Shown here in pieces: positions 1-56,331 of a stretch of 56,331 bases of DNA. How positions within the stretch are numbered: position 1 is the first letter of the stretch; each line of letters starts with the position of its first letter. The notes below the pieces were generated by a model that was not told the origin of the DNA, ran no database searches, and saw only the letters and a program-made list of their open reading frames with translations. A program made the position numbers and the translations under genes. Location: positions 1 to 56,331 of IMG/VR virus record IMGVR_UViG_3300049048_000077; one strand, 5' to 3'. The DNA comes from a virus.

Positions 1-87
1 GGGCCCGCTACTTTCGTATCGGACACAGAGGACCCTTTACGAGGCGCATTGCTTGAGCTTCAAGTCTACGCGTTGGTGAACAGCTGA
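1..87 (+). CDS. 3' end of the small gene that is complete at 56036-56248 (duplicate copy)
   Basis: The open frame runs in from the window edge and stops at the TGA at 85-87. It encodes the last 28 residues of the 70-aa protein whose complete copy lies at the right end of the window. It is a by-product of the contig-end duplication and not a separate truncated gene. Confidence 0.8.
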   Translation, partial: GPATFVSDTEDPLRGALLELQVYALVNS

Positions 88-170
88 GCTGCGCAATGCT
101 TGTGGGCGGGGGAGAAAACTTCAGGGGCGGTTTTCGCTTCTTCGCTGTTTCGCGGCTCGGCGCCACTCCC
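1..170. repeat. Left copy of the 170-bp contig-end duplication
   Basis: This stretch matches 56162-56331 with a constant offset of 56161 and only four mismatches (window positions 100, 103, 128 and 132). Three of the four read G in the right-hand copy, which looks like read-end error. The simplest reading is that the assembler ran once around a circular or terminally redundant molecule, giving a true length near 56161 bp. It should not be taken as a biological terminal repeat without read evidence. Confidence 0.9.
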
Positions 171-573
171 AGGGCGGCGTGTGCGGTGCGCTCCATAAAC
201 CCACTGACCGGGCACGCGCGGTAGCTTCTAACGGTGCAAGGTCCGGACGGGCCGCCGAGTATTTCGTGTACACCCAAGCCATCCCGGCGCTGACCTGTTC
301 GGTCGCCACGTCACGCCTCTGGCATTCCACATCGCCGACCGTGCGCCCGTATTTGTCCGTGTCGCGCGGGATGATGAAGGCGCGAGTCTCGAAGCACAGC
401 TTGGCCAGGTGCTGGCGCGACACCTCGCCGAAGGCCTGACGCTTTTCGGGGGCATCAATGGCGTTGATTCGAATGGTGACCTGCTGATAGGCGCCTGGCA
501 CACCGCAGCGGGCCTTAATGGTGTCACCGTCGGTGATGGCGACCACGAGACAGAGTAATGGAGCGGCAAACAA
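121..573 (-). CDS. Secreted thermonuclease-like (SNase family) protein
   Basis: A 150-aa protein of the staphylococcal nuclease family, whose members hydrolyse DNA and RNA with Ca2+. Visible hallmarks are DGDTIKAR near residue 15, RINAIDAPEKR (catalytic Arg/Asp region), DKYGRTVGDV, GMAWVY and ARSVGLWS. The first 13 residues are hydrophobic (FAAPLLCLVVA), like a short signal sequence. An in-frame stop lies only two codons upstream, so the only available full-length start is TTG at 573; no strong ribosome-binding site is seen. The gene stands alone between the end of the circular map and the accessory ORF at 845. It may degrade host or competitor DNA, or be a lysogen-expressed exported nuclease. 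The family call is firm, the phage role is inference. Confidence 0.85.
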   Translation of the reverse strand: MFAAPLLCLVVAITDGDTIKARCGVPGAYQQVTIRINAIDAPEKRQAFGEVSRQHLAKLCFETRAFIIPRDTDKYGRTVGDVECQRRDVATEQVSAGMAWVYTKYSAARPDLAPLEATARARSVGLWSAPHTPPWEWRRAAKQRRSENRP

Positions 574-1571: not shown

Positions 1572-2495
1572 TCACAGCCGCGCTGAAATCTGCTCTGCTG
1601 TCTCGCGGTAGTACACGTTCAGGAGCATCGACAAATCCTTGTGTCTGCTGATCCGCGCCAGGGTCATCACATCCACCCGGCGAGCCAGCAGCGTCAATGC
1701 CGTGGCCCGGGTATCGTGAAACGTCAGATCGTCTAAAAGCAGCTGACGCCGCAGCTTGGTGAACAGCACGCTGGCCTCGTTCGGCCCTACGGTGAATTCC
1801 ACCGGGAACAGCTTGAGCGACCGACGCGGCAAGGGGACTTCAACATACCCCCCAGTCTTGGTCCGATCCAATATGTACACCCGGCGCTTTGCGTCATAGG
1901 TGCCGGTAAGCACCTCGGCAAGACGCATCCCTGTGTGCAATGCAATGTGGAAAGCCTTCACCACCTCGCCCATCTTCTTGCTTCGGTCCGAGCGCAGCAC
2001 GCGCTTCATCTGCCGCCATCCCCAAACCTGCCTGCGTGCCTCCACCTGTTCGGGCATCCGCACGCCCCGAAACGGGTGCGTGTCAATCCAGCGCCATTCG
2101 TCCATCGCCACGGTGAACAGGTTGCGAATCAAATTCGCCTCCCTCTGTACCGTCGCCCCAGTCACAGCTTTCAGGCGCGCATCTCGCCACTGCCCGATAT
2201 CCGCGCTGGTGATTTGAGCGATTGGAGTGTGGTCGCCAAAGTGATCCATGAAGGCGGCAAACCGCTTTTCCTCCCACAGGGGTTTGCTTTTGGTCACGCT
2301 GACGGTCCGCACATAGTCAGCCACAGCATCGCCCAGCGTCTTTCCACCGGAGCCCTTGAGCCTGTCCAACTCAGCTTCCTTCGCCAGAGCCCAGGCCTGG
2401 GCTTCGCGCTTGGTGGCGGCAAGGTGGGATGCCCGGATGCCGTGCCGCTGAACTTCTGCCCGCCACTTGTCGCGGTACTTGCGAATCGATGCCAT
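1572..2495 (-). CDS. int: Tyrosine recombinase (phage integrase)
   Basis: A 307-aa site-specific recombinase that would integrate and excise the phage. The N-terminal third (SIRKYRDKWRAEVQRHGIR and the following helix) resembles the arm-type DNA-binding domain, followed by a SAM-like core-binding domain. The catalytic residues are all visible: Arg in HTGMRLAEVL, Lys in DRTKTGGYVEVPL, the HxxR pair in FHDTRATAL, His in ISRHKDLSML and the nucleophile in NVYYRET near the C-terminus. The ATG at 2493-2495 immediately follows one of the direct repeats taken here as Int arm sites, so Int binding could repress its own gene. It is the last gene before the terminator at 1403-1440. Confidence 0.95.
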   Translation of the reverse strand: MASIRKYRDKWRAEVQRHGIRASHLAATKREAQAWALAKEAELDRLKGSGGKTLGDAVADYVRTVSVTKSKPLWEEKRFAAFMDHFGDHTPIAQITSADIGQWRDARLKAVTGATVQREANLIRNLFTVAMDEWRWIDTHPFRGVRMPEQVEARRQVWGWRQMKRVLRSDRSKKMGEVVKAFHIALHTGMRLAEVLTGTYDAKRRVYILDRTKTGGYVEVPLPRRSLKLFPVEFTVGPNEASVLFTKLRRQLLLDDLTFHDTRATALTLLARRVDVMTLARISRHKDLSMLLNVYYRETAEQISARL

Positions 2496-2883: not shown

Positions 2884-3483
2884 AGTGTTTGGCTTGTGTA
2901 GTGCCTTGGGCACCTCGTCTTTTTCGAGCGTCTTTTTGAAGCCGACACAGCCAGCGACGTGAAAGACCACAACGCCCTCGGGCCTCATGAAGCCAGGCGC
3001 AGCGGCGCTACCATCGATGCGCAGGCGAGTGATTGCGTCCTCTACTTCATCGGTGCTGAACAAGCCTCGGTAAAGCACCGGCACCACACCAACACATGCA
3101 GGAACGCGGGTCTGATACTTCGGCTCTGCGCGCGGGTCGGCTGACGGGATCAGCGCGGGCTCCGCGTCGTGTGCACACCAGCGTAGCGTGTTGAACAGGC
3201 TGAAGCGCTTTTCGGTTTGGTTGTATTTCCGCTGGATGCCAGAGCCCCACCATTCGCCGAAGTGGCGTCCAGGTCCCAGCAGGCGCAGTTCGTCCGCATT
3301 GGCCGCAACCCAAGCGGCGAATCCGTAGTTGTCGTCGTCCGGCGTGATCCAGCGCGACCGCGACCCAGCGACGATGCCACCACCATCGCCGACGAGGATT
3401 TGTGCATTCGTGCCGTCGATCTTTTCGGTAATTACGCACTCGCGCGACAGGCGGGCCATCTTGGGGAATTCTTGAAAGTCCAT
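2875..3483 (-). CDS. Small RNA ligase (Rnl2-like nucleotidyltransferase)
   Basis: A 202-aa ATP-dependent RNA ligase of the Rnl2/RNA_ligase family. Motif I is KIDGTNAQI near residue 22 (the Lys would carry AMP). The motif III region is GRHFGEWWGSGIQRKY, motif IV is EGVVVFHV and motif V is FKKTLE near residue 183. It is shorter than T4 Rnl2 (334 aa) and lacks the C-terminal specificity domain, as many phage versions do. An AGGAG ribosome-binding site precedes ATG 3483. Known relatives repair tRNAs cut by host anticodon nucleases, and a counter-defence role here is inferred. Confidence 0.85.
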   Translation of the reverse strand: MDFQEFPKMARLSRECVITEKIDGTNAQILVGDGGGIVAGSRSRWITPDDDNYGFAAWVAANADELRLLGPGRHFGEWWGSGIQRKYNQTEKRFSLFNTLRWCAHDAEPALIPSADPRAEPKYQTRVPACVGVVPVLYRGLFSTDEVEDAITRLRIDGSAAAPGFMRPEGVVVFHVAGCVGFKKTLEKDEVPKALHKPNTAA

Positions 3484-3497
3484 GCGTTCTCCTGAAA

Positions 3498-3518
3498 TAA
3501 AAAAGAGCCCGAAGGCTC
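3498..3518 (-). terminator. Intra-operon terminator upstream of the RNA ligase gene
   Basis: The stem GAGCC/GGCTC (3505-3509 with 3514-3518, CGAA loop) is followed on the minus strand by six U. It overlaps the stop codon of the 49-aa gene. Confidence 0.8.
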
Positions 3519-3666
3519 AGTGAAAAGTATTGCTTGGTGCCGGGTCATCCTCCCGCTCCGGCACTTCGTCTTCATCGCTATCCCTTTCCTGCTGCCATTC
3601 CTGGCCGTGGAAGATGCGGGATAGCTCTTGGTCTTGGTCCTGGCGCTGGCGGGCTCTGCGGCTCAT
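3517..3666 (-). CDS. Small acidic protein, 49 aa
   Basis: An ATG at 3664-3666 overlaps the stop of the upstream gene (ATGA), and the frame stays open to a TGA in the following terminator hairpin. The product starts MSRRARQRQDQDQ and then becomes strongly acidic (DSDEDEVPEREDD). No family is recognised. The overlap and codon continuity with the operon make it a likely real gene that a length cutoff would miss. Confidence 0.6.
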   Translation of the reverse strand: MSRRARQRQDQDQELSRIFHGQEWQQERDSDEDEVPEREDDPAPSNTFH

Positions 3667-4064
3667 GGTGCCTCTCCTTCCCTCAGCTTCTGAGGATCAA
3701 TGCCAGGCCATGCCCTTGCACCGCGCTCCGTCAGTGCAGCGAGTTCAGCTTCGGGGAGAATGGCACGGGCGGCATCCCGCCTTGTCTTGTAGGTCATGTA
3801 GACCACTTCACCCACCTTGCCGTGCGGCTGGCAGGCTTCCCAGTACAAGCGGTCTGCTTTCTCCTGCTCTAGCGCCACCCAGTCGCTGAATGCCCACGAA
3901 ACACATTCGAAGAACACTTTGGCGCTGGCGTCAGCATCGCCGTTGAAGACGAGTTCCCCCCCGCTCAGATCCAGACTTCCTAGTCTTGTCCCATCTCGCC
4001 AGAAAATTATGGTGTGCTGTTGTGAAGAACTTTGCGGATCGATTTGTATCGTGTGTTCGTTCAT
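3663..4064 (-). CDS. Hypothetical early protein, 133 aa
   Basis: Starts at ATG 4064 overlapping the previous stop (ATGA), with AAGGAG eight bases upstream. The C-terminal half contains MTYKTRRDAARAILPEAELAALTERGARAWPGI, resembling a helical segment common in small phage early proteins. No catalytic motif or membrane segment is seen. It belongs to the tightly packed leftward operon; function unknown. Confidence 0.75.
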   Translation of the reverse strand: MNEHTIQIDPQSSSQQHTIIFWRDGTRLGSLDLSGGELVFNGDADASAKVFFECVSWAFSDWVALEQEKADRLYWEACQPHGKVGEVVYMTYKTRRDAARAILPEAELAALTERGARAWPGIDPQKLREGEAP

Positions 4065-22412: not shown

Positions 22413-22737
22413 GAGCTCGCAGGGCACTAGTGGCCTCTCCAGTAGGGGTGAGGCCGATGATGACCACGCAAATTGGAGTTCCGTATGTCGCAGGTGATTT
22501 ACTGCGACTGGAGATTCGGGGTCGCTGAATCAATCCTTGTTTGTGCGCGTCGATGATCGATGGCAAGAGGGTCGGGTCCTCTGCCATCTCCTCGCAGCCA
22601 TAACTGCGTTTGCCGTTGATGAGGTTTCGAACGATTCGGTTCATTACTACTCCTGGCTCGCCAGACAACCCGGCGATCAGCTCTAGTTTCGTCAAAAGGT
22701 CCGAAACGCGACTGCGGCCCAATTTCGCACCTTTCAT
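22402..22737 (-). CDS. Minus-strand small DNA-binding-like protein, 111 aa
   Basis: Start ATG 22737 rather than further upstream, because the longer frame runs through the late-promoter element. MKGAKLGRSRVSDLLTKLEL and the final IGLTPTGEATSALRAL resemble the end of winged-helix proteins (LTP.G....L). Convergent with the gene before it (11-bp overlap) and divergent from the small terminase gene: its start region overlaps the first late promoter element, so it could regulate, or be regulated by, that element. Confidence 0.55.
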   Translation of the reverse strand: MKGAKLGRSRVSDLLTKLELIAGLSGEPGVVMNRIVRNLINGKRSYGCEEMAEDPTLLPSIIDAHKQGLIQRPRISSRSKSPATYGTPICVVIIGLTPTGEATSALRALNA

Positions 22738-22738
22738 T

Positions 22739-22782
22739 CCCCCCCAGTGGGGGTCGCACCAAAACTTTCGCCCCGGAACACT
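22739..22782 (+). promoter_or_regulatory. Late element 1 (before terminase genes)
   Basis: Box 1 is CCCCCCCAGTGGGGGTCGC (variant with a perfect C/G stem), box 2 is CGGAACACT at 22774-22782. Distance from the C of CAGT (22745) to box 2 is 29, as in every other copy. The small-terminase ATG lies 15 nt after the start of box 2. Confidence 0.7.
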
Positions 22783-22788
22783 CGGGGA

Positions 22789-23505
22789 ATGGTCAAACCC
22801 ACCGCGCAAGACAAAGCGCCACCCACCGCAACAATGCCTGCAGCCAAGAAGAAGGCTGCAAAATCAGCCGCGCCTGCAAAGCGCCGCACCGACTGGGAAG
22901 CGGTTGAAAGGGACTACCGCACAGGGAAATTCACCCTTCGTGAGCTGGAAGAGAAGCATGGTGCATTCAACAGCTCGATTGCACGCAAAGCGAAGAAAGA
23001 CGGCTGGACCCAAGACCTTTCCCGCGCCATTCAGCAGGCGACCAACGCAAAGCTGGCCGAGTCGCTGGTTAGCGAGCTTGCTAGCGAAGGTGCGCAAAAC
23101 GCTAGCGCCACAGTGCTTGCTGCTGCGGAGGTCAATAAACAGGTGATTTTGGGGCATCGAAAGGACGTCACAGCCACCAGGAACGTCGCCGCCGCCCTTT
23201 TGGAAGAGCTGAGCCGGTCAGCACTGCTAGCAGAGGAGCAGGAATTGCTAACCCAGGTGTTAGCAGGAAGCGGCGCAGAGCCTGCTGATGAAGCGCGGAT
23301 TCGGGCGGTGGTGCAGAAGGCGCTATCGCTGCCGAGCCGGGTGGGCAGCGTGAAGCAACTCGCAGACACCTTCGACAAGCTGCAGCTGGCAGAACGCCGG
23401 GCTTTTGGGTTGGACGACAAGACCGACAGACCAGAGAGCAGCCTGGCCGAGATGGCAACTGATGAACTCAAGCGCATGCGTGAGGAGCTGCGCAATGGGG
23501 GCTAG
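22789..23505 (+). CDS. terS: Terminase small subunit
   Basis: 238 aa from ATG 22789. After a Lys/Ala-rich N-terminus, RRTDWEAVERDYRTGKFTLR, ELEEKHGAFNSSIARKAKKD, GW is the DNA-binding helix-turn-helix of phage small terminases. A long helical middle (AESLVSELASEGAQNASATV) should build the oligomeric ring. It ends inside the large-subunit gene (11-bp overlap), supporting the assignment. It recognises the pac/cos site and recruits the large subunit. Confidence 0.82.
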   Translation: MVKPTAQDKAPPTATMPAAKKKAAKSAAPAKRRTDWEAVERDYRTGKFTLRELEEKHGAFNSSIARKAKKDGWTQDLSRAIQQATNAKLAESLVSELASEGAQNASATVLAAAEVNKQVILGHRKDVTATRNVAAALLEELSRSALLAEEQELLTQVLAGSGAEPADEARIRAVVQKALSLPSRVGSVKQLADTFDKLQLAERRAFGLDDKTDRPESSLAEMATDELKRMREELRNGG

Positions 23506-24985: not shown

Positions 24986-27196
24986 ATGCACGCCACCGTA
25001 ATGCAAGGGGGCGGCATGCCCCAGGCCGAGTCCGTCGACAAGCCGATGCTCGATCTGCGCGCTGAGTTTGTCCAGACGCTTCTCACCAAGCGCCGGGAAG
25101 CCATCGCTGGCCGAGCTGGATCCGGAATCGAAGAGGAGTGGACTGAGGATGAAGAACACTACCAAGGCATTGATGATGCTAATAGGGCATTCCAGAACGC
25201 CAATCAGCTCTACCGCAGCCGCAAGTCCACGTTGATCGGCTCAGCAACGAAAGATCAAGGCCCGTCTCGCTCGGTTGTGTTCCTCAATATCACGCGGCCA
25301 TACGTGGACGCCGCTAGTGCACGGGTGGCGGACATGCTGTTGCCGACGGATGACCGGGCGTGGGAGATCAAGCCGACGCCACTGCCGCGTATGTCGGAGA
25401 GCCAGATCACCAAACTGGCGAGCGCGATGGGTTTGAGTGACCCCGCAGAGGTACAAGCTCAGCTTGAGCAACGCCAGGTACAGGCCCGAGCGGCCTCCGA
25501 GGGCATGCAGAAAGCTATCGAGGACCCGCTGGTTGAGAGCAACTGGCACGGCGAGGTACGCCATCTGATCGAAGACTCGGCTCGCATCGGTACAGGCGTT
25601 CTAAAGGGCCCGTTCCCGATTCAGCGCACCGCTCGTGTGACGCATAAGGACCCGACCAGCGGCATGACCGAGCTCGTCAAGGTCAGCGAAATCAAACCCG
25701 GCTCCAAGCGCATAGATTGCTGGAATTTCTTTCCCGACCCATCCTGCGGCGAGAACATTCACAACGGCAGCTACACCTTCGAGCGGGAGTTCATCGGCCG
25801 CCGTCAGATCAAGGAGATGCTGGCAGACGAAAGCTATGACCAGGGCGAACTGATCGCCGTCCTGCGCGAGGGACCGGCCCGCACCCGCGAAGGGACCGAA
25901 GCGGTCTACCGCGCCAGCGAAGATGAGTTTGAAATGTGGATCTTCTATGGCCACGCCGCCCGCGAGTATTTGGCACGCCTGGGCGTCGAGCTGGATGAGG
26001 GCGACGAAGACCGCATGCCCACCATGGCCGTGATGATCAATGACCGCCTGGTGAAGGCGGTGCTCAGCCCCCAAGAGGACGGACAGTTCCCGTATGACGT
26101 GCTGGCCTGGCAGCGGCGTCCAGGCATGCCCTGGGGAGTGGGCATCGCCCGCCAGATTCGGACGGCGCAGCGCATGCTCAATGGTGCGACGCGGGCCATG
26201 ATGGACAACAGTGGTCTTTCAGCCGCGCCGCAAATCGTTTTGGGCAACGGAGTGACACCCCAAGATGGCAATTTCGTAATGCGACCGGGAAAGATTTGGC
26301 GGGCTGAGGCAGCTGCCGACGTGCAAGACGTGCGGGCCGCTTTCAACGCCTTCGTTGTGCCCAGTGTTCAGAACGAGCTGATGAACATCATCAACTTCGC
26401 CATGAAGATGGCCGAGGACACCACCGGCATGCCCGCCATGTTGCAGGGGATTCGCGGCGATGCACCAAGCACCTTGGGCGGCATGCAGATGCAGAACAAC
26501 AACGCGACAAGCGTGCTGCGCCGCCTGGCCAAGCGGTTCGACGACTACATGACCCGCCCTCACATCCAGCGGTACTTTGACTGGATGATGGCTTACAGCG
26601 ACGACGAAACCATCAAGGGCGACTTCGAGATTGAAGTGCGTGCATCCTCCGCGCTGGTCGAGCGTGATGCCCAGCAGCAGTTCCTCATGCAAATGGTGGC
26701 GATGGCCAAGGACCCGGCCTACGAGGTTGACCCTGCCAAGGTCTTCGCGGAGCTGTGCAAGGGCCAGCGTCTGGACCCCAAGAACTTCCAGCTCACGGAA
26801 GAGCAGAAGGCACAACGCCAGCAGGTGGCACCAGACCCAGTTGCGGAGAACAAGGCAAAACTGCTGGATGCACAGACCAGCAAGGTCGCCGCAGAGACGC
26901 GCAAGGTCGAGTCGGACAGATCCAGCACGGACATGAAGACGCTGTACAGCGGCGTGCAAACCGCCCAGGTGCTTGCGACGGTGCCTGGTGTGGCGCCGCT
27001 TGCCGACGAACTGGCGAAGTCCGTTGGTGTAGAGGACCAGAACGGCGGCACGGTTGTCCCGCAGCTGGCAGAGGCTGCGATGACCCAGCCAGAACCGGTT
27101 GCCGTTGCTACCAGCACCGACCCACTCACCCCGACAAGTCCTGCGCTGGGGTTCCAAGACGGCATTGAGACGCCCGAAGCTGACGGCGTTCGGTGA
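24986..27196 (+). CDS. Portal protein
   Basis: 736 aa, the usual size for podovirus-type portals. Recognisable blocks: VVFLNITRPYVDAASARVAD, MLLPTDDRAWEIKPTPLP, KRIDCWNFFPDPSCGENIHN, LAWQRRPGMPWGVGIARQIR, TAQRMLNGATRAMMDNSGLS and NIINFAMKMAEDTTGMPAML. The C-terminal 100 residues are a helical barrel-like tail rich in Ala/Gln. It would form the dodecameric channel through which DNA is packaged and ejected. Starts one base after the terminase stop. Confidence 0.9.
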   Translation: MHATVMQGGGMPQAESVDKPMLDLRAEFVQTLLTKRREAIAGRAGSGIEEEWTEDEEHYQGIDDANRAFQNANQLYRSRKSTLIGSATKDQGPSRSVVFLNITRPYVDAASARVADMLLPTDDRAWEIKPTPLPRMSESQITKLASAMGLSDPAEVQAQLEQRQVQARAASEGMQKAIEDPLVESNWHGEVRHLIEDSARIGTGVLKGPFPIQRTARVTHKDPTSGMTELVKVSEIKPGSKRIDCWNFFPDPSCGENIHNGSYTFEREFIGRRQIKEMLADESYDQGELIAVLREGPARTREGTEAVYRASEDEFEMWIFYGHAAREYLARLGVELDEGDEDRMPTMAVMINDRLVKAVLSPQEDGQFPYDVLAWQRRPGMPWGVGIARQIRTAQRMLNGATRAMMDNSGLSAAPQIVLGNGVTPQDGNFVMRPGKIWRAEAAADVQDVRAAFNAFVVPSVQNELMNIINFAMKMAEDTTGMPAMLQGIRGDAPSTLGGMQMQNNNATSVLRRLAKRFDDYMTRPHIQRYFDWMMAYSDDETIKGDFEIEVRASSALVERDAQQQFLMQMVAMAKDPAYEVDPAKVFAELCKGQRLDPKNFQLTEEQKAQRQQVAPDPVAENKAKLLDAQTSKVAAETRKVESDRSSTDMKTLYSGVQTAQVLATVPGVAPLADELAKSVGVEDQNGGTVVPQLAEAAMTQPEPVAVATSTDPLTPTSPALGFQDGIETPEADGVR

Positions 27197-27199
27197 GTG

Positions 27200-27242
27200 C
27201 CCCCCAGTAGGGTTCGCGCTGGAGGGCATGGCTCGGAACACT
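27200..27242 (+). promoter_or_regulatory. Late element 2 (before head-assembly genes)
   Basis: C-run plus CAGTAGGGTTCGC (27205-27217) and CGGAACACT (27234-27242), 29-nt start-to-start distance. The ATG of the 69-aa gene lies 16 nt after the start of box 2. The 43 bp between and around the boxes are almost identical to element 5. Confidence 0.75.
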
Positions 27243-27249
27243 CCGGGTC

Positions 27250-27459
27250 ATGAAGGGCATCGAGATCAATTCCCCCACGTGGCGCGCTGTGAGTGAGCAC
27301 GCTCAAACGCAGATCGCCACGCTGCGAGAGAAGAACGACAGCCCGTCAATGGACGCGATCCGCACTGCTGAAACACGTGGGCGGATTGCTGCATGGAAAG
27401 AACTGCTGGCGCTGGTCAAACCAGCCCCGGCGCCAACCGCCGACGTTGGTGGCTACTGA
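27250..27459 (+). CDS. Small head-region protein, 69 aa
   Basis: Starts directly after late element 2 with no room for a Shine-Dalgarno on a 16-nt-or-shorter leader. Product KGIEINSPTWRAVSEHAQTQ, IATLREKNDSPSMDAIRTAE, TRGRIAAWKELLALVKPAPA is helical and resembles small proteins found between portal and scaffold genes. Possibly an assembly helper; unknown. Confidence 0.75.
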   Translation: MKGIEINSPTWRAVSEHAQTQIATLREKNDSPSMDAIRTAETRGRIAAWKELLALVKPAPAPTADVGGY

Positions 27460-31115: not shown

Positions 31116-31157
31116 CCCCCAGTAGGGTTAGACGACCCCGTTCCGTACGGGAAAACT
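31116..31157 (+). promoter_or_regulatory. Late element 3 (before ejection-protein genes, degenerate box 2)
   Basis: CCCCCAGTAGGGTTAG with CAGTAGGG starting at 31120; box 2 at 31149 reads GGGAAAACT (7 of 9 matching), again 29 nt away. The next ATG is at 31184, so this copy has a leader of about 20 nt. Confidence 0.65.
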
Positions 31158-31183
31158 GCCTGCATTGATCCGAAAGGCCATCC

Positions 31184-35947: not shown

Positions 35948-35974
35948 AAGGCCTGATTCGGCGGGCATTTTGAG

Positions 35975-36017
35975 CCCCCCAGTAGGGTTCGCCCAATACG
36001 CCATCCCTCGGAACACT
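35975..36017 (+). promoter_or_regulatory. Late element 4 (before tail genes)
   Basis: CAGTAGGGTTCGC starts at 35980 after a C-run; CGGAACACT at 36009-36017, 29 nt away. The first ATG is at 36048 behind a CAGGAG, so this transcript has a normal leader. Confidence 0.75.
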
Positions 36018-36047
36018 GCCAGGCAATCACCTCGCAGGAGTTACCGA

Positions 36048-44033: not shown

Positions 44034-44045
44034 GCGCCTGAGCGG

Positions 44046-44087
44046 CCCCCAGTAGGGTTCGCGCGAGAGGGCATGGCTCGGAACACT
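44046..44087 (+). promoter_or_regulatory. Late element 5 (before fibre genes)
   Basis: CAGTAGGGTTCGC from 44050, CGGAACACT at 44079-44087 (29 nt), ATG at 44095 (16 nt after box 2 starts). The 50 bp around it repeat element 2 almost exactly, including the 17 bases between boxes. Confidence 0.78.
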
Positions 44088-44094
44088 CCGGGTC

Positions 44095-44528
44095 ATGACC
44101 ATCACACCGGCCAGCCTGTCACTGCCCATCGTCCAGGGTGCCACCTTCGACGAGGCCCTGCAGCGCAGCTTCTTCCCGTACGACACCGCTTGGGTCTGCG
44201 GAGTGCTCGTCCGCGCAGACACGGGCGCGCCAGTCAACGAGGCTGATCGCGTGGCAGAGGACTACACCGGCTGCACCGCAGAACTGCAGTTGCGCCACCC
44301 CGAGACGAATGCGCTCATCAAGACGCTCAGCACGGCCAACTCCGGGATCGTGCTGGACGCTGACACGCTGAGGCTGTTCATCAGCCACACCGATACGGCG
44401 GCCTTCGCATACGGCGAAACGGCGCCTGCCTGGACGTATGCCTTTGGACACGTGGAAGTCACGCGCCCCGATGGCACGCGCGAGCGCCAGTACTCGATCA
44501 CCTTCCCACTGAACCCGGAGCTGACGGT

Positions 44529-47729: not shown

Positions 47730-48385
47730 ACATCATCCAGTACCTACTCGCCGCGGACGTGCCCGTTGAGCTGGAGCAGGCCGCCGTGGCGTGTCTGCTT
47801 GATGCACAGGAGCGCGCCAGCGGGCTCACCTGGGTCAAGTGGAAGGTTCGCCTGTTCCGCGCGGGCAAGATCGCCAAGTTGCTCGCTTGGGCCGACGAAC
47901 GCCTGATCGACGTGCGTCCGGACCTCGCCGACTGGGACATCGCCCCCATGGTGAACATCACGGCCCACGGTGACAACGTGCCGTGGGGAGCAGACGGCCC
48001 TATGCGAGGCGCTTGGTTGCAGGACACCGCCGAGGCGCGCGCCGCCAACTACTGGTGCAAGGGCGAACACCCCCGCAGCAAGAAGTCGCGCAAGGTTTGG
48101 TACCGACGCAATGCTGGCGAGTACCGCGCCTGGCGCCTCGGCCGCCGCGTGGCCCCTGGCGCTACTCGGGTGTGGAGCGCCAACGGTGTCACCGTGCGGG
48201 AGAACAGCGGTGCATGGCAGATCGTGGCAACGGGCAAGTGGCTCGGCTTCATCCCCGTTCGCGTTCGCATCGGGTACGAAATCGACAACGCGGTGCGAGA
48301 TGACGGCACTCAGCTCTGGTATCCGATTCCCGGTGCGGAACTGCGCGCGCCCATCACTTGGTCGGTATTGCCAGCCCGAGGATAG
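47726..48385 (+). CDS. Late hypothetical protein, 219 aa
   Basis: ATGA overlap fixes the start at 47726. NIIQYLLAADVPVELEQAAV is an N-terminal helical segment; WKVRLFRAGKIAKLLAWADE and ANYWCKGEHPRSKKSRKVWY, RRNAGEYRAWRLGRRVAPGA are basic blocks that could bind nucleic acid or membrane phosphates. Ends directly before late element 6. Unknown function. Confidence 0.65.
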   Translation: MNIIQYLLAADVPVELEQAAVACLLDAQERASGLTWVKWKVRLFRAGKIAKLLAWADERLIDVRPDLADWDIAPMVNITAHGDNVPWGADGPMRGAWLQDTAEARAANYWCKGEHPRSKKSRKVWYRRNAGEYRAWRLGRRVAPGATRVWSANGVTVRENSGAWQIVATGKWLGFIPVRVRIGYEIDNAVRDDGTQLWYPIPGAELRAPITWSVLPARG

Positions 48386-48428
48386 CCCCCCAGTAGGGTT
48401 CGCGGGTGCCGGCCGGTGCCGGAACACT
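48386..48428 (+). promoter_or_regulatory. Late element 6 (before lysis genes)
   Basis: CAGTAGGGTTCGC from 48391, CGGAACACT at 48420-48428 (29 nt), ATG of a short ORF at 48436 (16 nt after box 2 starts). Confidence 0.78.
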
Positions 48429-48435
48429 GCAGGGC

Positions 48436-48483
48436 ATGAATCAAGAATGCCACCCCCTGCAGGCTGATGGAGCGCGACAGTGA
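48436..48483 (+). CDS. Leader peptide of 15 aa before the holin
   Basis: ATG 16 nt after the start of late box 2 opens a 15-codon frame (MNQECHPLQADGARQ) whose TGA overlaps the holin ATG as TGATG. It could couple holin translation to a ribosome that loads on the short late leader. No other role visible. Confidence 0.5.
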   Translation: MNQECHPLQADGARQ

Positions 48484-48818
48484 TGGATCGCAGCGAAATC
48501 AGCATGCCCTTTGCGAAAGCCGGCACCGCAATCACAGCTGCAGCAGCAGCCAAGGCCGACGTCGCGGACAAGGTGGCAATGGCAGCGTCAGCGAATGCCA
48601 GCCCCGACACCTGGATGATCGTCAACTCCATCCCCTGGGGCACCGTCGCATCTATGGCTGCGGCTGCATATACGTTGCTGCTGATCACCGAGTGGTTCTG
48701 GAAGAAGCTCTGGAGGCCTTTTTTTGAATCACGCGGCTGGCTCAAGGCCAAGCGGCGGCGGGTCATCACCGTCGAGGAGTACGAATCCTCGGGCGATACC
48801 GACAAGGCCCCGCTATGA
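48483..48818 (+). CDS. Holin
   Basis: 111 aa from ATG 48483 (GTG 48480 is a possible alternative). MPFAKAGTAITAAAAAKADV, ADKVAMAASANASP is an N-terminal cytoplasmic/periplasmic helix, and VASMAAAAYTLLLITEWFWKKLW a transmembrane segment of about 22 residues, followed by a strongly basic tail (RGWLKAKRRRVI). This matches the small holins of Bcep-like phages that pair with a SAR endolysin. It precedes the lysozyme gene with a 4-bp overlap. Confidence 0.78.
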   Translation: MDRSEISMPFAKAGTAITAAAAAKADVADKVAMAASANASPDTWMIVNSIPWGTVASMAAAAYTLLLITEWFWKKLWRPFFESRGWLKAKRRRVITVEEYESSGDTDKAPL

Positions 48819-49387
48819 ACGCAGACCGGGCCCGCGTCATCAAGGTGGCAGGCGGCGTGCTCGTCGCAGCATCAGCCGCCGTCGGCGCGATCCTGACCAA
48901 GTGGGAACCTGCGCCAAAGGATCCCGGCCTCGTCTACGCCGACAAGCTCGCCGGAGGCCTTCCCACCGTGTGCAACGGGATCACGCGCCACATCACCAGC
49001 ACGCCAGTAGTCGTCGGGCAGCGCTGGACCCCGGGTAAATGCGCTGAGGAAGAGTCCGCCGCTATCGAGAAGGTGCAGCGGCAACTCGCCCGGTGTTTCA
49101 CCCGCACGCCCCCGCAGATCGTGTTCGACATGGCTACCTCACACGCATGGAACAACGGCGCTGCGAACACGTGCGGCAGCCTGGCCATGGCGGCCTGGAA
49201 CGAAGGCCAGTGGGAGCTCGGGTGCCGCCGTATGAGTCTGTCAGACGACGGCCGCCCAGTGTGGAGCTTCGCGCGCACTGGCCGCATTCTGCCTAACGGA
49301 AAGCCAGAGATGCGCTTCGTGCAGGGATTGGCGAACCGCCGCACCGACGAGACCCGCAAATGCCTGGCAGGGCTTCCCACTACCTGA
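48815..49387 (+). CDS. SAR endolysin, glycoside hydrolase family 24-like
   Basis: 190 aa. An N-terminal weak hydrophobic helix rich in Ala/Gly (IKVAGGVLVAASAAVGAILT) fits a signal-arrest-release anchor. Then TKWEPAPKDP, YADKLAGGLPTVCNGIT gives the lysozyme core: Glu in KWE, Asp in YAD, Thr in the GIT end. CGSLAMAAWNEGQWELGCRR and FVQGLANRRTDETRKCL form the C-terminal half. It cuts peptidoglycan after release from the inner membrane. Confidence 0.85.
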   Translation: MNADRARVIKVAGGVLVAASAAVGAILTKWEPAPKDPGLVYADKLAGGLPTVCNGITRHITSTPVVVGQRWTPGKCAEEESAAIEKVQRQLARCFTRTPPQIVFDMATSHAWNNGAANTCGSLAMAAWNEGQWELGCRRMSLSDDGRPVWSFARTGRILPNGKPEMRFVQGLANRRTDETRKCLAGLPTT

Positions 49388-49405
49388 CCACGTCGAAAGG
49401 CCAGT

Positions 49406-49609
49406 ATGAAAGCAATCGCCCTGATTCTTGCACTGGCCCTTGCCGGCTGCGCCACTACGAAAGGCCTTGAGGTATCCGCCGACGATGCTGCAGAGTGCGC
49501 GGCCGCTGGCTGCACTCCTTGGAGCGAGCGCCAGATCCAGGGCCTTGCCAAGCACTTCTACGGCCTGGGCCACAAGGCGGGCGTGAAGCAGGGCAGGGGG
49601 AACATTTGA
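49406..49609 (+). CDS. Small lipoprotein in the lysis cluster, 67 aa
   Basis: MKAIALILALALAGCATTKG carries a lipobox LAGC (Cys15). The mature part is KGLEVSADDAAECAAAGCTP and ends with a helix (ERQIQGLAKHFYGLGHKAGV). It is in addition to the Rz1-type lipoprotein further on, so the cluster has two lipoproteins. Function unknown; perhaps a lysis regulator or outer-membrane spanin partner. Confidence 0.7.
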   Translation: MKAIALILALALAGCATTKGLEVSADDAAECAAAGCTPWSERQIQGLAKHFYGLGHKAGVKQGRGNI

Positions 49610-49662
49610 TGAACCCCATCTTGTTCGCCATGTTGTGGTACTGGTGGAGGGCGTGGAAATGA
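49609..49662 (+). CDS. Tiny hydrophobic peptide, 17 aa
   Basis: MNPILFAMLWYWWRAWK, coupled at both ends: its ATG overlaps the previous stop (TGATG) and its stop overlaps the Rz start (ATGA). Four tryptophans and a basic end suggest membrane insertion. It may be a real mini-protein or just a coupling ORF. Confidence 0.5.
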   Translation: MNPILFAMLWYWWRAWK

Positions 49663-50177
49663 TTCCAGGCCTTTACACCTACGTCGCCACAGCCCTTGCC
49701 GCTGGCGCCATTGCGTTTGCCGGTGGCTGGAAGGTGCAGGCGTGGCGCTACGACGCGCAGATCGCCGCCATCCATGCCAAGCACGCGGATGCCAAGCTCA
49801 AGCGCTCCGAGGCCGCTCGTGCGGACGAAACCAAGACCGCCGGGAAAGAGGGCGCGCACGCCACCAGCACACAGGAGAACTCCGATGAATTTACGACTTC
49901 GCAACCGGTGCGCGATGCCATTGCTCGTGCTGACCTTGCTCGCGTTGACCGGCTGCGCGTCGACGCCGAGCGCCGAGCCGCCACTTATCGCGCGCAAGCC
50001 CAAGCCGACGCCGCTGCCCGCAGCGATCTTGCAGATCGACACGCGGCCTTCGACCGCCACATTGTCGAGGGGGCAGCAGTGGTTGCAGAACACCGAGCAG
50101 CTCTTGCCCGGCGTGACGCAGAAGTAGTGCTGCTGCGGCGGCAGATTGATACCGAGCGGGCCCTGTTGGAGCCTTGA
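49659..50177 (+). CDS. Rz: Rz-type inner-membrane spanin
   Basis: 172 aa from ATG 49659. MIPGLYTYVATALAAGAIAF is a membrane anchor and the rest a long coiled coil (YDAQIAAIHAKHADAKLKRS, DLADRHAAFDRHIVEGAAVV). Together with the embedded Rz1 it would fuse inner and outer membranes in the last step of lysis. Confidence 0.85.
   Translation: MIPGLYTYVATALAAGAIAFAGGWKVQAWRYDAQIAAIHAKHADAKLKRSEAARADETKTAGKEGAHATSTQENSDEFTTSQPVRDAIARADLARVDRLRVDAERRAATYRAQAQADAAARSDLADRHAAFDRHIVEGAAVVAEHRAALARRDAEVVLLRRQIDTERALLEP
49885..50127 (+). CDS. Rz1: Rz1-type outer-membrane spanin lipoprotein (embedded in Rz)
   Basis: 80 aa in another frame inside Rz, from ATG 49885 with AGGAGA before it. MPLLVLTLLALTGCASTPSA is a lipoprotein signal with LTGC, then a Pro-rich mature protein (EPPLIARKPKPTPLP). 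The overlap inside Rz and the Pro-rich lipoprotein are diagnostic. Confidence 0.88.
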   Translation: MNLRLRNRCAMPLLVLTLLALTGCASTPSAEPPLIARKPKPTPLPAAILQIDTRPSTATLSRGQQWLQNTEQLLPGVTQK

Positions 50178-51592: not shown

Positions 51593-51617
51593 AAAGGCCC
51601 TCAAGGGGCCTTTTTTA
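51593..51617 (+). terminator. Terminator of the late region (bidirectional)
   Basis: AAAGGCCC (51593-51600) pairs with GGGCCTTT (51606-51613), then T-run TTTA. On the minus strand an A-rich flank also gives a shorter U-tract, so it can serve the convergent operon. Confidence 0.88.
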
Positions 51618-51914
51618 TTGGGTCGTGAGCGGCGTTTCCGCCCCGTCGACCGACACCATGACACTTGGATAGTCGGCCCTGATCTCCAGCCTCGCGCCCA
51701 TGAACTTCATGTGATCGCTTGCGGGCGAGGCGGCTATACCTTTGCGAACCGAAGCGATCGTGTCGGTCAACTCCTTATGCTGGGCTGGCGACAGTATGAA
51801 CTTCCGCGGGTAGGCCTCAGCGTGGGCTTTCCAGTGACCGCGCAGCGCGGTAAGCAGCGTTTCGTAGATATGGGACGCCAAAAAAGGATCTCTTCCTAGA
51901 TTGGAGCGCAACAA
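51615..51914 (-). CDS. Hypothetical protein, third gene of the pilin-like operon, 99 aa
   Basis: TTG 51914 directly follows the preceding stop, suggesting coupled translation. FLASHIYETLLTALRGHWKA, HAEAYPRKFILSPAQHKELT is helical and soluble; the C-terminus ends in a beta-like strand (IRADYPSVMVSVDGAETP). No family recognised. The region 51.6-52.8 kb is less GC-rich than the late genes, consistent with recent acquisition. Confidence 0.6.
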   Translation of the reverse strand: MLRSNLGRDPFLASHIYETLLTALRGHWKAHAEAYPRKFILSPAQHKELTDTIASVRKGIAASPASDHMKFMGARLEIRADYPSVMVSVDGAETPLTTQ

Positions 51915-52223
51915 CTATTTGGTGCGCGCAAGCGACAAAATACCGAAAACTCCAATAGCCAGGACAAGCGTCGCCTGAAGAATAATTGTGGCGAGTATTA
52001 ACTCCGTACCAGCAATTGAGTCATGAAGGCTGGCGGGAAGAAAATTCGCAAACAGGTTGTACTTCGGTAGCGACAACTGAAAGAACAAATTTGCAGCTAT
52101 CTCGCTACCGAAGTATGCGCAGATGTATAGCGCTGTAGCAGAAACCGCCCCAAGCGTCAGCGCAACTAGCACTGACATGATCAGTCGCGGCCAGGGTGCG
52201 TAAATTCTGGTGTTCTTCCGCAT
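51915..52223 (-). CDS. Two-pass membrane protein of the pilin-like operon, 102 aa
   Basis: Start ATG 52223 is 10 nt after the pilin-like gene. Two hydrophobic segments (LIMSVLVALTLGAVSATALY and LILATIILQATLVLAIGVFG) flank a polar loop (FGSEIAANLFFQLSLPKYNL). Could be an anchor or partner for the pilin-like protein. No homologue known to me. Confidence 0.65.
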   Translation of the reverse strand: MRKNTRIYAPWPRLIMSVLVALTLGAVSATALYICAYFGSEIAANLFFQLSLPKYNLFANFLPASLHDSIAGTELILATIILQATLVLAIGVFGILSLARTK

Positions 52224-52233
52224 GTTATAGCCG

Positions 52234-52833
52234 TTAGCAAGCCTCATAGCCTGGGATGACGCGTGAACGACCCGCGCCCGCAATGCATAATCGACGCGAG
52301 TTGTTGTCGGTAATGACGCGATGCTTTGCAATTACTTCGACGGTAACGTTGTTTTGGATCGCGCCCGTGTCGTCCGTTATGCGCCCTTGGCGGTTGAAGT
52401 AGAGACGGCCGTTCGTCGCACCCGTAACTGTGAGTTCAACATTAGGTGGTGGCGAGAATTCAATGATCGTGCACTCGGTCTGCTCTGTGGGTGTACACGC
52501 ACTTTGGTTGCCGTCTCGCAATAGTCCATCATGCCAAATCAACCAGCCGCACTTGAAGTCCGTGGCCCCGCTCGAAACGCAGCCATTTGGGCCGGTATCA
52601 TTTTTCTTTAGGACCACATCGCCGGCATGCTTAATAGCGGCCGACCGCGCGGTAAAAATACTGCCTTGCAAGGCTTCAGTAGCTGAGCGCACCCGCCACC
52701 GCTCTATTACTGGGGTGAAGCTGGGAGCAGCCAAAGCCAACAGCAGGCCCGCGATTGCGACCACCACCATCACCTCGATGAGGGAGAAGCCAAGCTGCAC
52801 AGTGCTTCGGGGAAAACGCAAATTTTGAACCAT
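52234..52833 (-). CDS. Type IV pilin / FimT-GspH-like prepilin
   Basis: 199 aa from ATG 52833 (AAGGA 7 bases upstream). The N-terminus QLGFSLIEVMVVVAIAGLLL is a class III prepilin sequence: Gly before Phe is the prepilin peptidase cut site, Glu at +5 and a hydrophobic assembly helix follow. TFTPV-like spacer, then FTARSAAIKHAGDVVLKKND, CGWLIWHDGL (GW-[VL] motif of FimT/GspH) and IEFSPPPNVELTVTGATNGR, LYFNRQGRITDD complete a minor-pseudopilin head with paired Cys. A phage-borne pilin on the opposite strand is unusual. It could alter host type IV pili and block pilus-dependent phages, or affect DNA uptake; this is inference. Confidence 0.88.
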   Translation of the reverse strand: MVQNLRFPRSTVQLGFSLIEVMVVVAIAGLLLALAAPSFTPVIERWRVRSATEALQGSIFTARSAAIKHAGDVVLKKNDTGPNGCVSSGATDFKCGWLIWHDGLLRDGNQSACTPTEQTECTIIEFSPPPNVELTVTGATNGRLYFNRQGRITDDTGAIQNNVTVEVIAKHRVITDNNSRRLCIAGAGRSRVIPGYEAC

Positions 52834-53071: not shown

Positions 53072-54376
53072 TCACGCCCTGGCAATCGGCACGTCTTCCC
53101 ACCGGGTTGTGTACTGGGGCGTGCACCGCTCCTGCCGCATCTTCCAGTCCTTGGCGGCTCTGTTGCTGCCCCCCGTCGCAGCCGAGTGCACTGTCCCCTT
53201 TCCATATCGGCTGTTGAGCGCGTCGATGGTTTCCATCAACTTGCTGCGGTCACGGTTGTCGTCTTCCTCATCCAGGTCCAGCTCCCCCTGCTGCACGTTG
53301 TCCGGGATCAGGTCCAGCAGCATCACCCCGGCCTTGGCCATCCGGTAGCCTGGCTCATACATCCGGCGCATACCCGTTGTGGCTGCCTGCACCAGCAAGC
53401 CGGTATCGGCAGTGGGCCGACGCAGTGGCACCGTCACACCCTTGCTGAACCGCGGCCCGTCACGGAAGGGGGAGGTGTGGCAGAACACCAGCAGCTGGCT
53501 CGCCAAGCTGCCCTGCTTGCGCAGCTTCTCGGCGGCGCGGCTCGCAAACTCGCTTACTGCCTCGATCAGTGGGGGTAGCTCTGTCACGGTGCTGCCAAAG
53601 GACCGGGTGCACGCGATTTCTTTCTTCGGCTCGGGGGCGTCGGTCAGGTCAATGCACGGCATGCCCTGCAGCTCCCGCACAGTGCGCTCCAGGACCACGC
53701 TCCAGCGTCGTCGAACCGTGGCGGGGTCCATCCGCACCAGATCCAGCACTGTATGCACGCCGCCCGCCTGCAGCTGCGCGCCGATCTTGCGGCCCACGCC
53801 CCACACGTCATCTACCGGCGTCGCCTGCAGCACGTCGTCAAGATCCTGGGCGGGGAGGGCGGCGAGGTTGCACACCTGGGCAAGATCGGCGGGGTAGCTG
53901 CCGGGCTTGCGCTCAGCGGTCTTGGCAATGTGGTTGGCCAGCTTCGCCAGTGTCATCGTGGACGCAATGCCCACTCCGCAGGGGATGCCCACCCAGCGGT
54001 CGATGCGTTCGCGGATGGCCTTCCCTCTGCGGACCAGGTCACCGCGCACGCCGTGTAGGCCGATGAAGCTCTCGTCAATCGAGTAGATCTCCTGCGTTGG
54101 CCCAAGGCCGGCGGCGAGGGTCATCATCCGATTGCTCATGTCGCCGTAGAGTGTGTAATTGGCGCTCAGCGCCACCAGGCCGGCGCTCTCCTCGAGGTGC
54201 TGGATCTGAAACCACGGCGCGCCCATCTTGATGCCCAGGGCCTTGGCTTCGTTGCTGCGCGCGATCGCGCAGCCGTCGTTGTTGCTCAACACCACCACCG
54301 GGCGGCCGATCAGGCTGGGCCGGAACACCCGCTCACAGCTCACATAGAAGTTGTTCCCGTCGACCAATGCGTACAT
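53072..54376 (-). CDS. umuC: Y-family DNA polymerase UmuC-like
   Basis: 434 aa, start ATG 54376 (longer frame rejected). Active-site Asp in [17 protein letters not shown], catalytic pair in [12 protein letters not shown], then [20 protein letters not shown], thumb and little-finger blocks ([20 protein letters not shown]) and the C-terminal beta-clamp-binding-like QGELDL. Full-length, so active translesion synthesis is expected once UmuD is processed. It follows umuD by 23 bp under LexA control. Confidence 0.95.
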
Positions 54377-54399: not shown

Positions 54400-54849
54400 T
54401 CAGCTGGTAGAAAAGAGCTTCACGCACCCGCGCACGACACCCCACACCTCAATGGTCTGGCTGTCGCGCGGGATGATGTCGGGGTAGGTTGGGTTGGCGG
54501 CGCGCAGCTTCACCCGGCCGGCCCGCTGGTGCAGGTACTTCACGGTGCATTCGCCGTCGACCATAGCAACGACGACGCTGCCGTGTCTGGGCCGCACCGC
54601 GCGGTCGACCACGATGATGCTGCCATCTTCGATGCCCGCGTCACGCATCGAGTCGCCTCGCACCTGCCAAAAATAGGTCGCCTGGGGGTGCACCACCAGC
54701 AGTTTCATGATGTCCAGCCGCTCCACGACGAAGTCGTCAGCGGGCGATGGAAACCCCGCCCGTACGCTCACGCCACAGATGGGCAAAGCGAACGACTGCA
54801 CGGCCAGGTCGTAAGGCACTGGCAGGGGGGAATCCAGAAGACTGTACAT
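54400..54849 (-). CDS. umuD: UmuD-like mutagenesis protein
   Basis: 150 aa from ATG 54849. Cleavage region [14 protein letters not shown] with Ala-Gly as probable cut site, catalytic Ser in [10 protein letters not shown] and Lys in GECTVKYLH, the LexA/UmuD self-cleavage pair. The start codon lies inside the LexA box and six bases after a TACACT -10-like hexamer, indicating a leaderless message that LexA directly covers. Confidence 0.93.
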
Positions 54850-54857
54850 ATTTACAG
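54842..54857. promoter_or_regulatory. LexA operator (SOS box)
   Basis: CTGTACATATTTACAG is a perfect CTGT-N8-ACAG. It covers the predicted transcription start and ATG of umuD, and lies over the -35 zone of the divergent SRAP promoter, so one LexA dimer could repress both. Confidence 0.9.
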
Positions 54858-56035: not shown

Positions 56036-56248
56036 ATGAGCATTACAGTCTTCGTCGACAGAAAACTATCAGAAGCGGCCGTCAAAGAGGTTGAGCACCT
56101 CGCTCGGCATCTGGAAGAGCGTGATCCGAATTGGAAAGGGCGGCTGATCTGCGTGAAGCGGGGGCCCGCTACTTTCGTATCGGACACAGAGGACCCTTTA
56201 CGAGGCGCATTGCTTGAGCTTCAAGTCTACGCGTTGGTGAACAGCTGA
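56036..56248 (+). CDS. Hypothetical protein, 70 aa (complete copy across the contig seam)
   Basis: MSITVFVDRKLSEAAVKEVE, HLARHLEERDPNWKGRLICV, KRGPATFVSDTED is a beta-alpha-beta small domain of unknown family. ATG 56036 is preferred over TTG 56018. Its 3' end is duplicated at 1-87 of the window. Confidence 0.65.
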   Translation: MSITVFVDRKLSEAAVKEVEHLARHLEERDPNWKGRLICVKRGPATFVSDTEDPLRGALLELQVYALVNS

Positions 56249-56331
56249 GCTGCGCAATGCGTGGGGGCGGGGGAGAAAACTTCAGGGGGGGTCTTCGCTT
56301 CTTCGCTGTTTCGCGGCTCGGCGCCACTCCC
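56162..56331. repeat. Right copy of the 170-bp contig-end duplication
   Basis: Matches 1-170 with four mismatches (56261, 56264, 56289, 56293), see the left copy. Indicates circular closure of the map. Confidence 0.9.

Follow-up and report, generated by a model that had tools for sequence, protein, structure and literature searches.

Both phages and transforming DNA enter bacterial cells by way of type IV pili. Several prophage proteins, among them Tip, Aqs1 and Zip, disable type IV pili and so exclude phages, according to the accessible portions of two papers (PMC11656802, PMC11436027). Tip, Aqs1 and Zip, like the Pf proteins which act on PilC or PilJ, bind the motor, PilZ or the platform. 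The phage locus described here would resemble them in being an accessory gene with a proposed action on the pilus; however, it consists of a pilin and a membrane partner. To our knowledge, none of the phage pilus inhibitors known so far is a pilin. Pilins are already known from phages, since PHROG 3433 is annotated as 'pilin' among the morons. This family and PHROGs 11596 and 27437 hold prepilin-like phage proteins, and all five cassette pilins discussed below match them; the match is confined to roughly the first 75 residues in the two members for which ranges are available.

The host proteins with which the cassette pilins can be compared are FimT and FimU, as found in the operon of Acidovorax-type Comamonadaceae. 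Family, leader, helix and C-terminal cysteine pattern are the same. Unlike these, the cassette pilins are phage-borne, lack the operon, always have the same gene (ORF2) directly after them, and form a clade of their own; the W of the (D/N)RWG motif is also replaced by Q in the window pilin. The FimT protein of Legionella pneumophila, a DNA receptor, also belongs to the GspH/FimT family. A C-terminal GRxR region mediates DNA binding by FimT of L. pneumophila, P. aeruginosa and X. campestris; the motif is less well defined in FimU (PMC8897410, as far as its available text goes). No description of a phage FimT-type pilin cassette, or of such a pilin with a membrane partner shutting off pili, was found in the open-licence PMC literature; the available parts of PMC13228068, PMC9206674 and PMC10011098 describe no such cassette.

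The window, meaning the whole stretch of DNA analysed, is a virus record of 56331 bases (Table 1). Late genes are on the plus strand; these include genes for head-tail adaptor/portal, major head and tail fibre proteins. The pilin lies between the lysis genes and umuDC, and an SRAP gene is also found in this neighbourhood, beside umuC and umuD (Pfam, PHROGs). The accessory position beside SOS genes given in the preliminary description is thus borne out. GC content is approximately 0.54-0.55 in the pilin region and 0.60-0.66 in the flanks. Host DNA wrongly joined to a phage contig is ruled out as the source of the pilin, because the terminal repeat, with an integrase inside its left end, brackets the window and because related phages carry the same gene pair in the same place. 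A major-capsid search of six records gave no matches; it was run without a positive control and is therefore not used. The 3' end of a nuclease-like gene is overlapped by the terminal direct repeat, and DNA resembling positions 210-568 is present in 43 of 47 Acidovorax-type genomes. The gene and repeat may mark the integration target or be a carried copy of it.

Table 1. Positions of features in the window
Feature	Position	Strand	Basis or remark
Direct repeat, left copy, att-like	1..170		170 bp, 4 mismatches vs right copy
Nuclease-like gene	121-573	-	
Tyrosine integrase	1572..2495	-	Pfam and PHROGs; inside left end
Dispersed repeat, six copies	22734-22793, 27194-27253, 31116-31159, 35969-36028, 44039-44098, 48380-48439		
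Lysis genes (holin, endolysin, Rz-like spanin), end of late genes	48480..50177	+	PHROGs; cassette faces them
ORF3, 99 aa, TTG start	51615..51914	-	Judged outside cassette
ORF2, two-pass membrane protein, ~102 aa, second cassette gene	51915..52223	-	Alternative ATG at 52247
Minor pilin, GspH/FimT family, class III leader, first cassette gene	52234..52833	-	Pfam; 199 aa at 52237-52833, stop at 52234
umuC-like polymerase gene	53072..54376	-	Pfam and PHROGs; start set by profile start
umuD-like gene	54400..54849	-	Pfam S24, PHROG 811; start codon uncertain
LexA-type box CTGT-N8-ACAG at umuD start	54842..54857		Only exact match in window
Direct repeat, right copy, att-like	56162..56331		170 bp, 4 mismatches vs left copy

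The pilin has a leader of 15 residues ending in Gly (MVQNLRFPRSTVQLG, followed by FSLIE) and then a hydrophobic helix. Its matches exceed the Pfam cut-offs for both N_methyl (E 9.5e-6) and GspH (E 5.2e-7), and a chance ORF is therefore ruled out. Shortly 5' of the ATG is AAGGA, a possible Shine-Dalgarno sequence. An intact FimT/GspH-type prepilin with a class III leader is thus present in the phage, as had been reported from a first reading of the DNA. Both Pfam models match all five cassette pilins, in which G15 and F16 (the G/F cleavage site) and E20 (Glu5) are invariant. An AlphaFold model of the pilin built from three sequences is weak (pLDDT 60, pTM 0.54), and the best PDB match of this weak model is the minor pilin FimU (E 5.5e-3). 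Two other identities were considered and rejected: a type II secretion pseudopilin GspH, with a secretion role, for which the NCBIfam equivalog scores 31 bits against a cut-off of 80, and a component of a defence system, for which PADLOC gives no match.

ORF2 encodes two hydrophobic segments separated by a loop of approximately 40 residues, as judged by hydropathy, and so agrees with the two-pass membrane protein predicted earlier. Its ends are basic, which under the positive-inside rule fits a topology with both termini in the cytoplasm. ORF2 copies in the other cassettes have 27-42% identity to that of the window. We considered whether it might be TfpX or TfpZ, which we take to be accessory proteins of type IV pilins, but no curated model matches; among NCBIfam models, the only match of the five members is to CrcB (E 0.03), far under the cut-off. 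Cultured phages contain no relative of the L230 ORF2. When ORF2 was searched alone, no more than two of 399 family genomes had a distant relative, neither with an adjoining pilin. One (L239, 8762-9190) is in a phage-like gene block; the other (L240, 8956-9402) is near a patatin-like gene, and its neighbours, read from their translations, resemble a CBASS-type defence locus. As distant relatives occur without a pilin, ORF2 may predate the pairing. The weak matches at L224 and L225 lie across acyltransferase-like frames and are regarded as chance.

Four further loci with the cassette were found: two IMG/VR phages (L230 and L231), one Acidovorax-type prophage (L265) and one short host contig (L264). 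ORF2 directly follows the pilin in all five cassettes, and each junction is compact. In L265 the two genes overlap at TGATG; in L230 and L264 a Shine-Dalgarno-like GGAG directly follows the stop; in L231 the ATG overlaps; and in the window there is either a 10-nt gap or an overlap, if the earlier ATG is used. The preliminary description had placed the pilin at the head of a three-gene minus-strand operon starting at 51615 and proposed a search for the same block in prophages. That search succeeded for the pilin and ORF2, which recur together in the four other loci, and the conserved unit is narrower, at 51915-52833. ORF3 is a real feature of the window, with the 99 residues originally given; relatives of it occur apart from any pilin in Acidovorax phage AP1 and on plasmids, and five umuC-type phage loci, from records lacking a prepilin, have one as well. 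L230 has an ORF3-like frame upstream of the pilin, not downstream. Because its relatives occur apart from the pilin, ORF3 is not counted in the unit; it seems to share the slot and not the function.

The cassette converges on the end of the late or lysis genes in the window, L230, L231 and L265, and it adjoins an integrase in L230 and L265. This is the placement of an accessory moron: a slot at the genome end, outside the structural modules, beside the integrase or the umuDC end. Several late proteins are common to the phages of the window, L230 and L231 (approximately 44-81% identity). The L265 stretch has a serine-type integrase and only the cassette in common with the other phages; the cassette is thus present on unrelated phage backbones. 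L264, a short contig, combines a fragment akin to the L265 integrase with otherwise mixed genes, and its phage context is probable.

Carriage of pilins by phages was described from the outset as rare, and the searches support this. When the window pilin was searched as a single sequence, cultured phages, plasmids, IMG/VR and genome contigs all yielded no relative. The phage relatives were found only with a profile (A1) made from the window pilin and 22 host FimT-like proteins; in IMG/VR, this profile has full-length matches in L230 (49%) and L231 (43%) and a partial one in L232 (35% over 65 residues). Later IMG/VR scans with profiles A3, A5, A2 and A4 added no locus, and cultured phages contain no relative of the L265 pilin. 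Pfam N_methyl found a prepilin in none of the 37 umuC-anchored contigs among the matches listed, of 80 loci, and a motif scan of 81 umuC loci returned the window's own pilin only. More cassette members may be missed because the IMG/VR scans rest on short peptide patterns. In L232, an IMG/VR contig of 86.5 kb, a more distant FimT/GspH-like protein (3440-4030) lies beside an integrase-like gene. It is a candidate for a further independent phage pilin, and stands outside the cassette clade analysis.

The kin of the phage point to Comamonadaceae, because umuC, among named genomes, is best matched in Acidovorax and its relatives and because ORF3 has a relative in phage AP1. Relatives of the pilin are found in each of 12 betaproteobacterial genomes searched. 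A search of 399 family genomes with the single pilin gives matches at E 1e-20 in 42 of them; identity to the window pilin is 33-45% for host pilins aligned over nearly their full length and at most 52% for partial matches. Gene neighbourhoods were viewed for part of these 42 genomes. The host genes lie in an operon which we take to be fimT-fimU-pilV-pilW-pilX-pilY1-pilE, with the names assigned by position and general pilin biology. Some host operons seem to hold one fimT/fimU-like gene only (e.g. L266 and L267), and pilV and pilW adjoin the match in all 18 operon-type loci (L246-L263). No pilV, pilW, pilX, pilY1 or pilE gene is found beside the window pilin (Pfam, PHROGs) or near the cassettes of L230, L231, L264 and L265, and naming any of the five FimU by location in a minor-pilin operon was accordingly rejected.

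Copies outside the operon are few among host genomes. Profile A3 matches 30 of 47 genomes of one genus at E 1e-30; the orphan copies in G482 and G485, which are the remaining two cassette pilins, outscore all operon copies (302 and 238 vs 225 bits), and both genomes also carry the operon type elsewhere, on separate contigs. Of 349 genomes sampled across the order, two match at E 1e-50, and neither is a cassette copy as judged by score. Of 299 family genomes searched with profile A5, two match at E 1e-55, namely G482 and G266; the G266 copy scores lower and does not belong to the cassette clade.

The five cassette pilins group together as a single clade (100/98, and in all 200 bootstrap trees) in a maximum-likelihood tree of 63 sequences, where they are nested in a group of host pilins encoded by the upstream gene (95/88). 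An earlier tree of 50 rows has the same cassette clade (100/96). Rows were selected on an N-terminal motif, a BLAST E of 1e-12 and coverage, which had to be at least 80% in the earlier round and 75% for the 63-sequence tree; identical rows were dropped from the latter, and two long rows, L170 and L171, were retained. The window pilin has the longest branch of its clade (1.33). Among the ten pilin pairs, identity is 30-43% at third codon positions vs 63-79% at second positions; by this comparison of codon positions, third positions are near saturation and the pilins are under purifying selection. A single clade nested among host pilins suggests that the gene was captured once and then passed from phage to phage under that selection.

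A pilin kept by related viruses suggests that the virus re-tools host pili from within the cell. The reading that we tentatively prefer, and would place slightly below an even chance, is that the phage pilin substitutes in the tip or priming complex, with phage exclusion as the likeliest benefit. Gene 1 would have been captured from the fimT end of the fimT-fimU-pilVWX-pilY1-pilE operon of an Acidovorax-like host, and gene 2 would supply a small inner-membrane hairpin made right after the pilin. In a lysogen, the host prepilin peptidase PilD would cleave the pilin leader, and the cleaved pilin would sit in the inner membrane. There it would join, or compete for, the minor-pilin priming or tip complex in place of host FimT or FimU, while ORF2 would hold, stabilise or gate it at the assembly platform. 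The changed tip or assembly would then keep pilus-dependent phages off the lysogen. Retention of the leader, Glu5 and the head cysteines, together with the kinship to host pilins, speaks for handling of the product by the host pilus machinery, and a closely coupled, rare membrane partner argues for a purpose beyond that of an extra subunit. It should be noted, against this reading, that a full-length pilin with Glu5 could simply work as a normal subunit. A broader proposal, which we hold with rather little confidence, is that replacement minor pilin and inner-membrane gate make up a two-gene device which decides what the pilus takes in: rival phages, foreign DNA or both.

If tip substitution is correct, the pilus is subverted by replacement of a subunit and not by inhibition of its motor; phages would edit the pilus itself. 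The cassette would also be a natural reagent for the roles of FimT and FimU at the betaproteobacterial pilus tip. The pilin-ORF2 pair is small and common to unrelated phages.

For tip substitution, the cassette would have to be expressed in lysogeny. In the window phage it follows umuC on the same strand with 238 bases between umuC and the pilin, and promoter and terminator scans were at chance level, with no terminator site above chance. SOS read-through is therefore possible in this phage, and a position behind a LexA-boxed umuDC could mean expression only on induction. Such control is not general, because umuC is not beside the cassette in the other four loci.

The strongest competing reading concerns DNA uptake. 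The phage pilin in the place of FimT, together with ORF2, might block or redirect DNA capture by the competence pilus, and the prophage would thereby be safe from loss when the host is transformed with prophage-free DNA. Opposition to transformation is frequent among mobile elements, which use DNases or disrupt competence genes (PMC11472951, in the text available). The window pilin has GRSR, in agreement with the GRxR region by which known FimT proteins bind DNA (PMC8897410, available portion), and two or three basic residues lie within the last 16 in all five cassette pilins. However, the four closest relatives have GRFK, GRIM, GKYK and GRIK, so that strict GRxR occurs in one of the five. In these hosts, moreover, GRIR is commoner in the downstream paralogue; the term 'FimT-type' for the phage gene therefore reflects position and kinship only. 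The evidence on the DNA-binding suggestion made for this locus is thus mixed: DNA binding by the cassette pilin is possible, the motif does not appear to be a conserved feature, and a role in DNA uptake is, in our view, rather doubtful.

Plain lysogenic conversion, in which a working extra minor pilin improves the adhesion or surface behaviour of the lysogen and ORF2 serves as an assembly helper, would fit the intact and conserved pilin features and the purifying selection. We consider it unlikely: both host genomes with orphan copies have operon copies of their own, and the scarcity of ORF2-like genes in family genomes indicates that a helper is not normally needed. A recently carried host pilin gene without function in the phage would agree with the local drop in GC (to approximately 0.54) and the long branch of the window pilin, but is contradicted by five copies with the same partner, in one clade and a repeated slot, and by conservation of the protein while third positions are saturated, and is very improbable.

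A dispersed repeat of approximately 44-60 nt, with the core CCCCCAGTAGGGTT ... CGGAACACT, is found between the late genes of the window; it may be a late promoter or other regulatory element of the phage.
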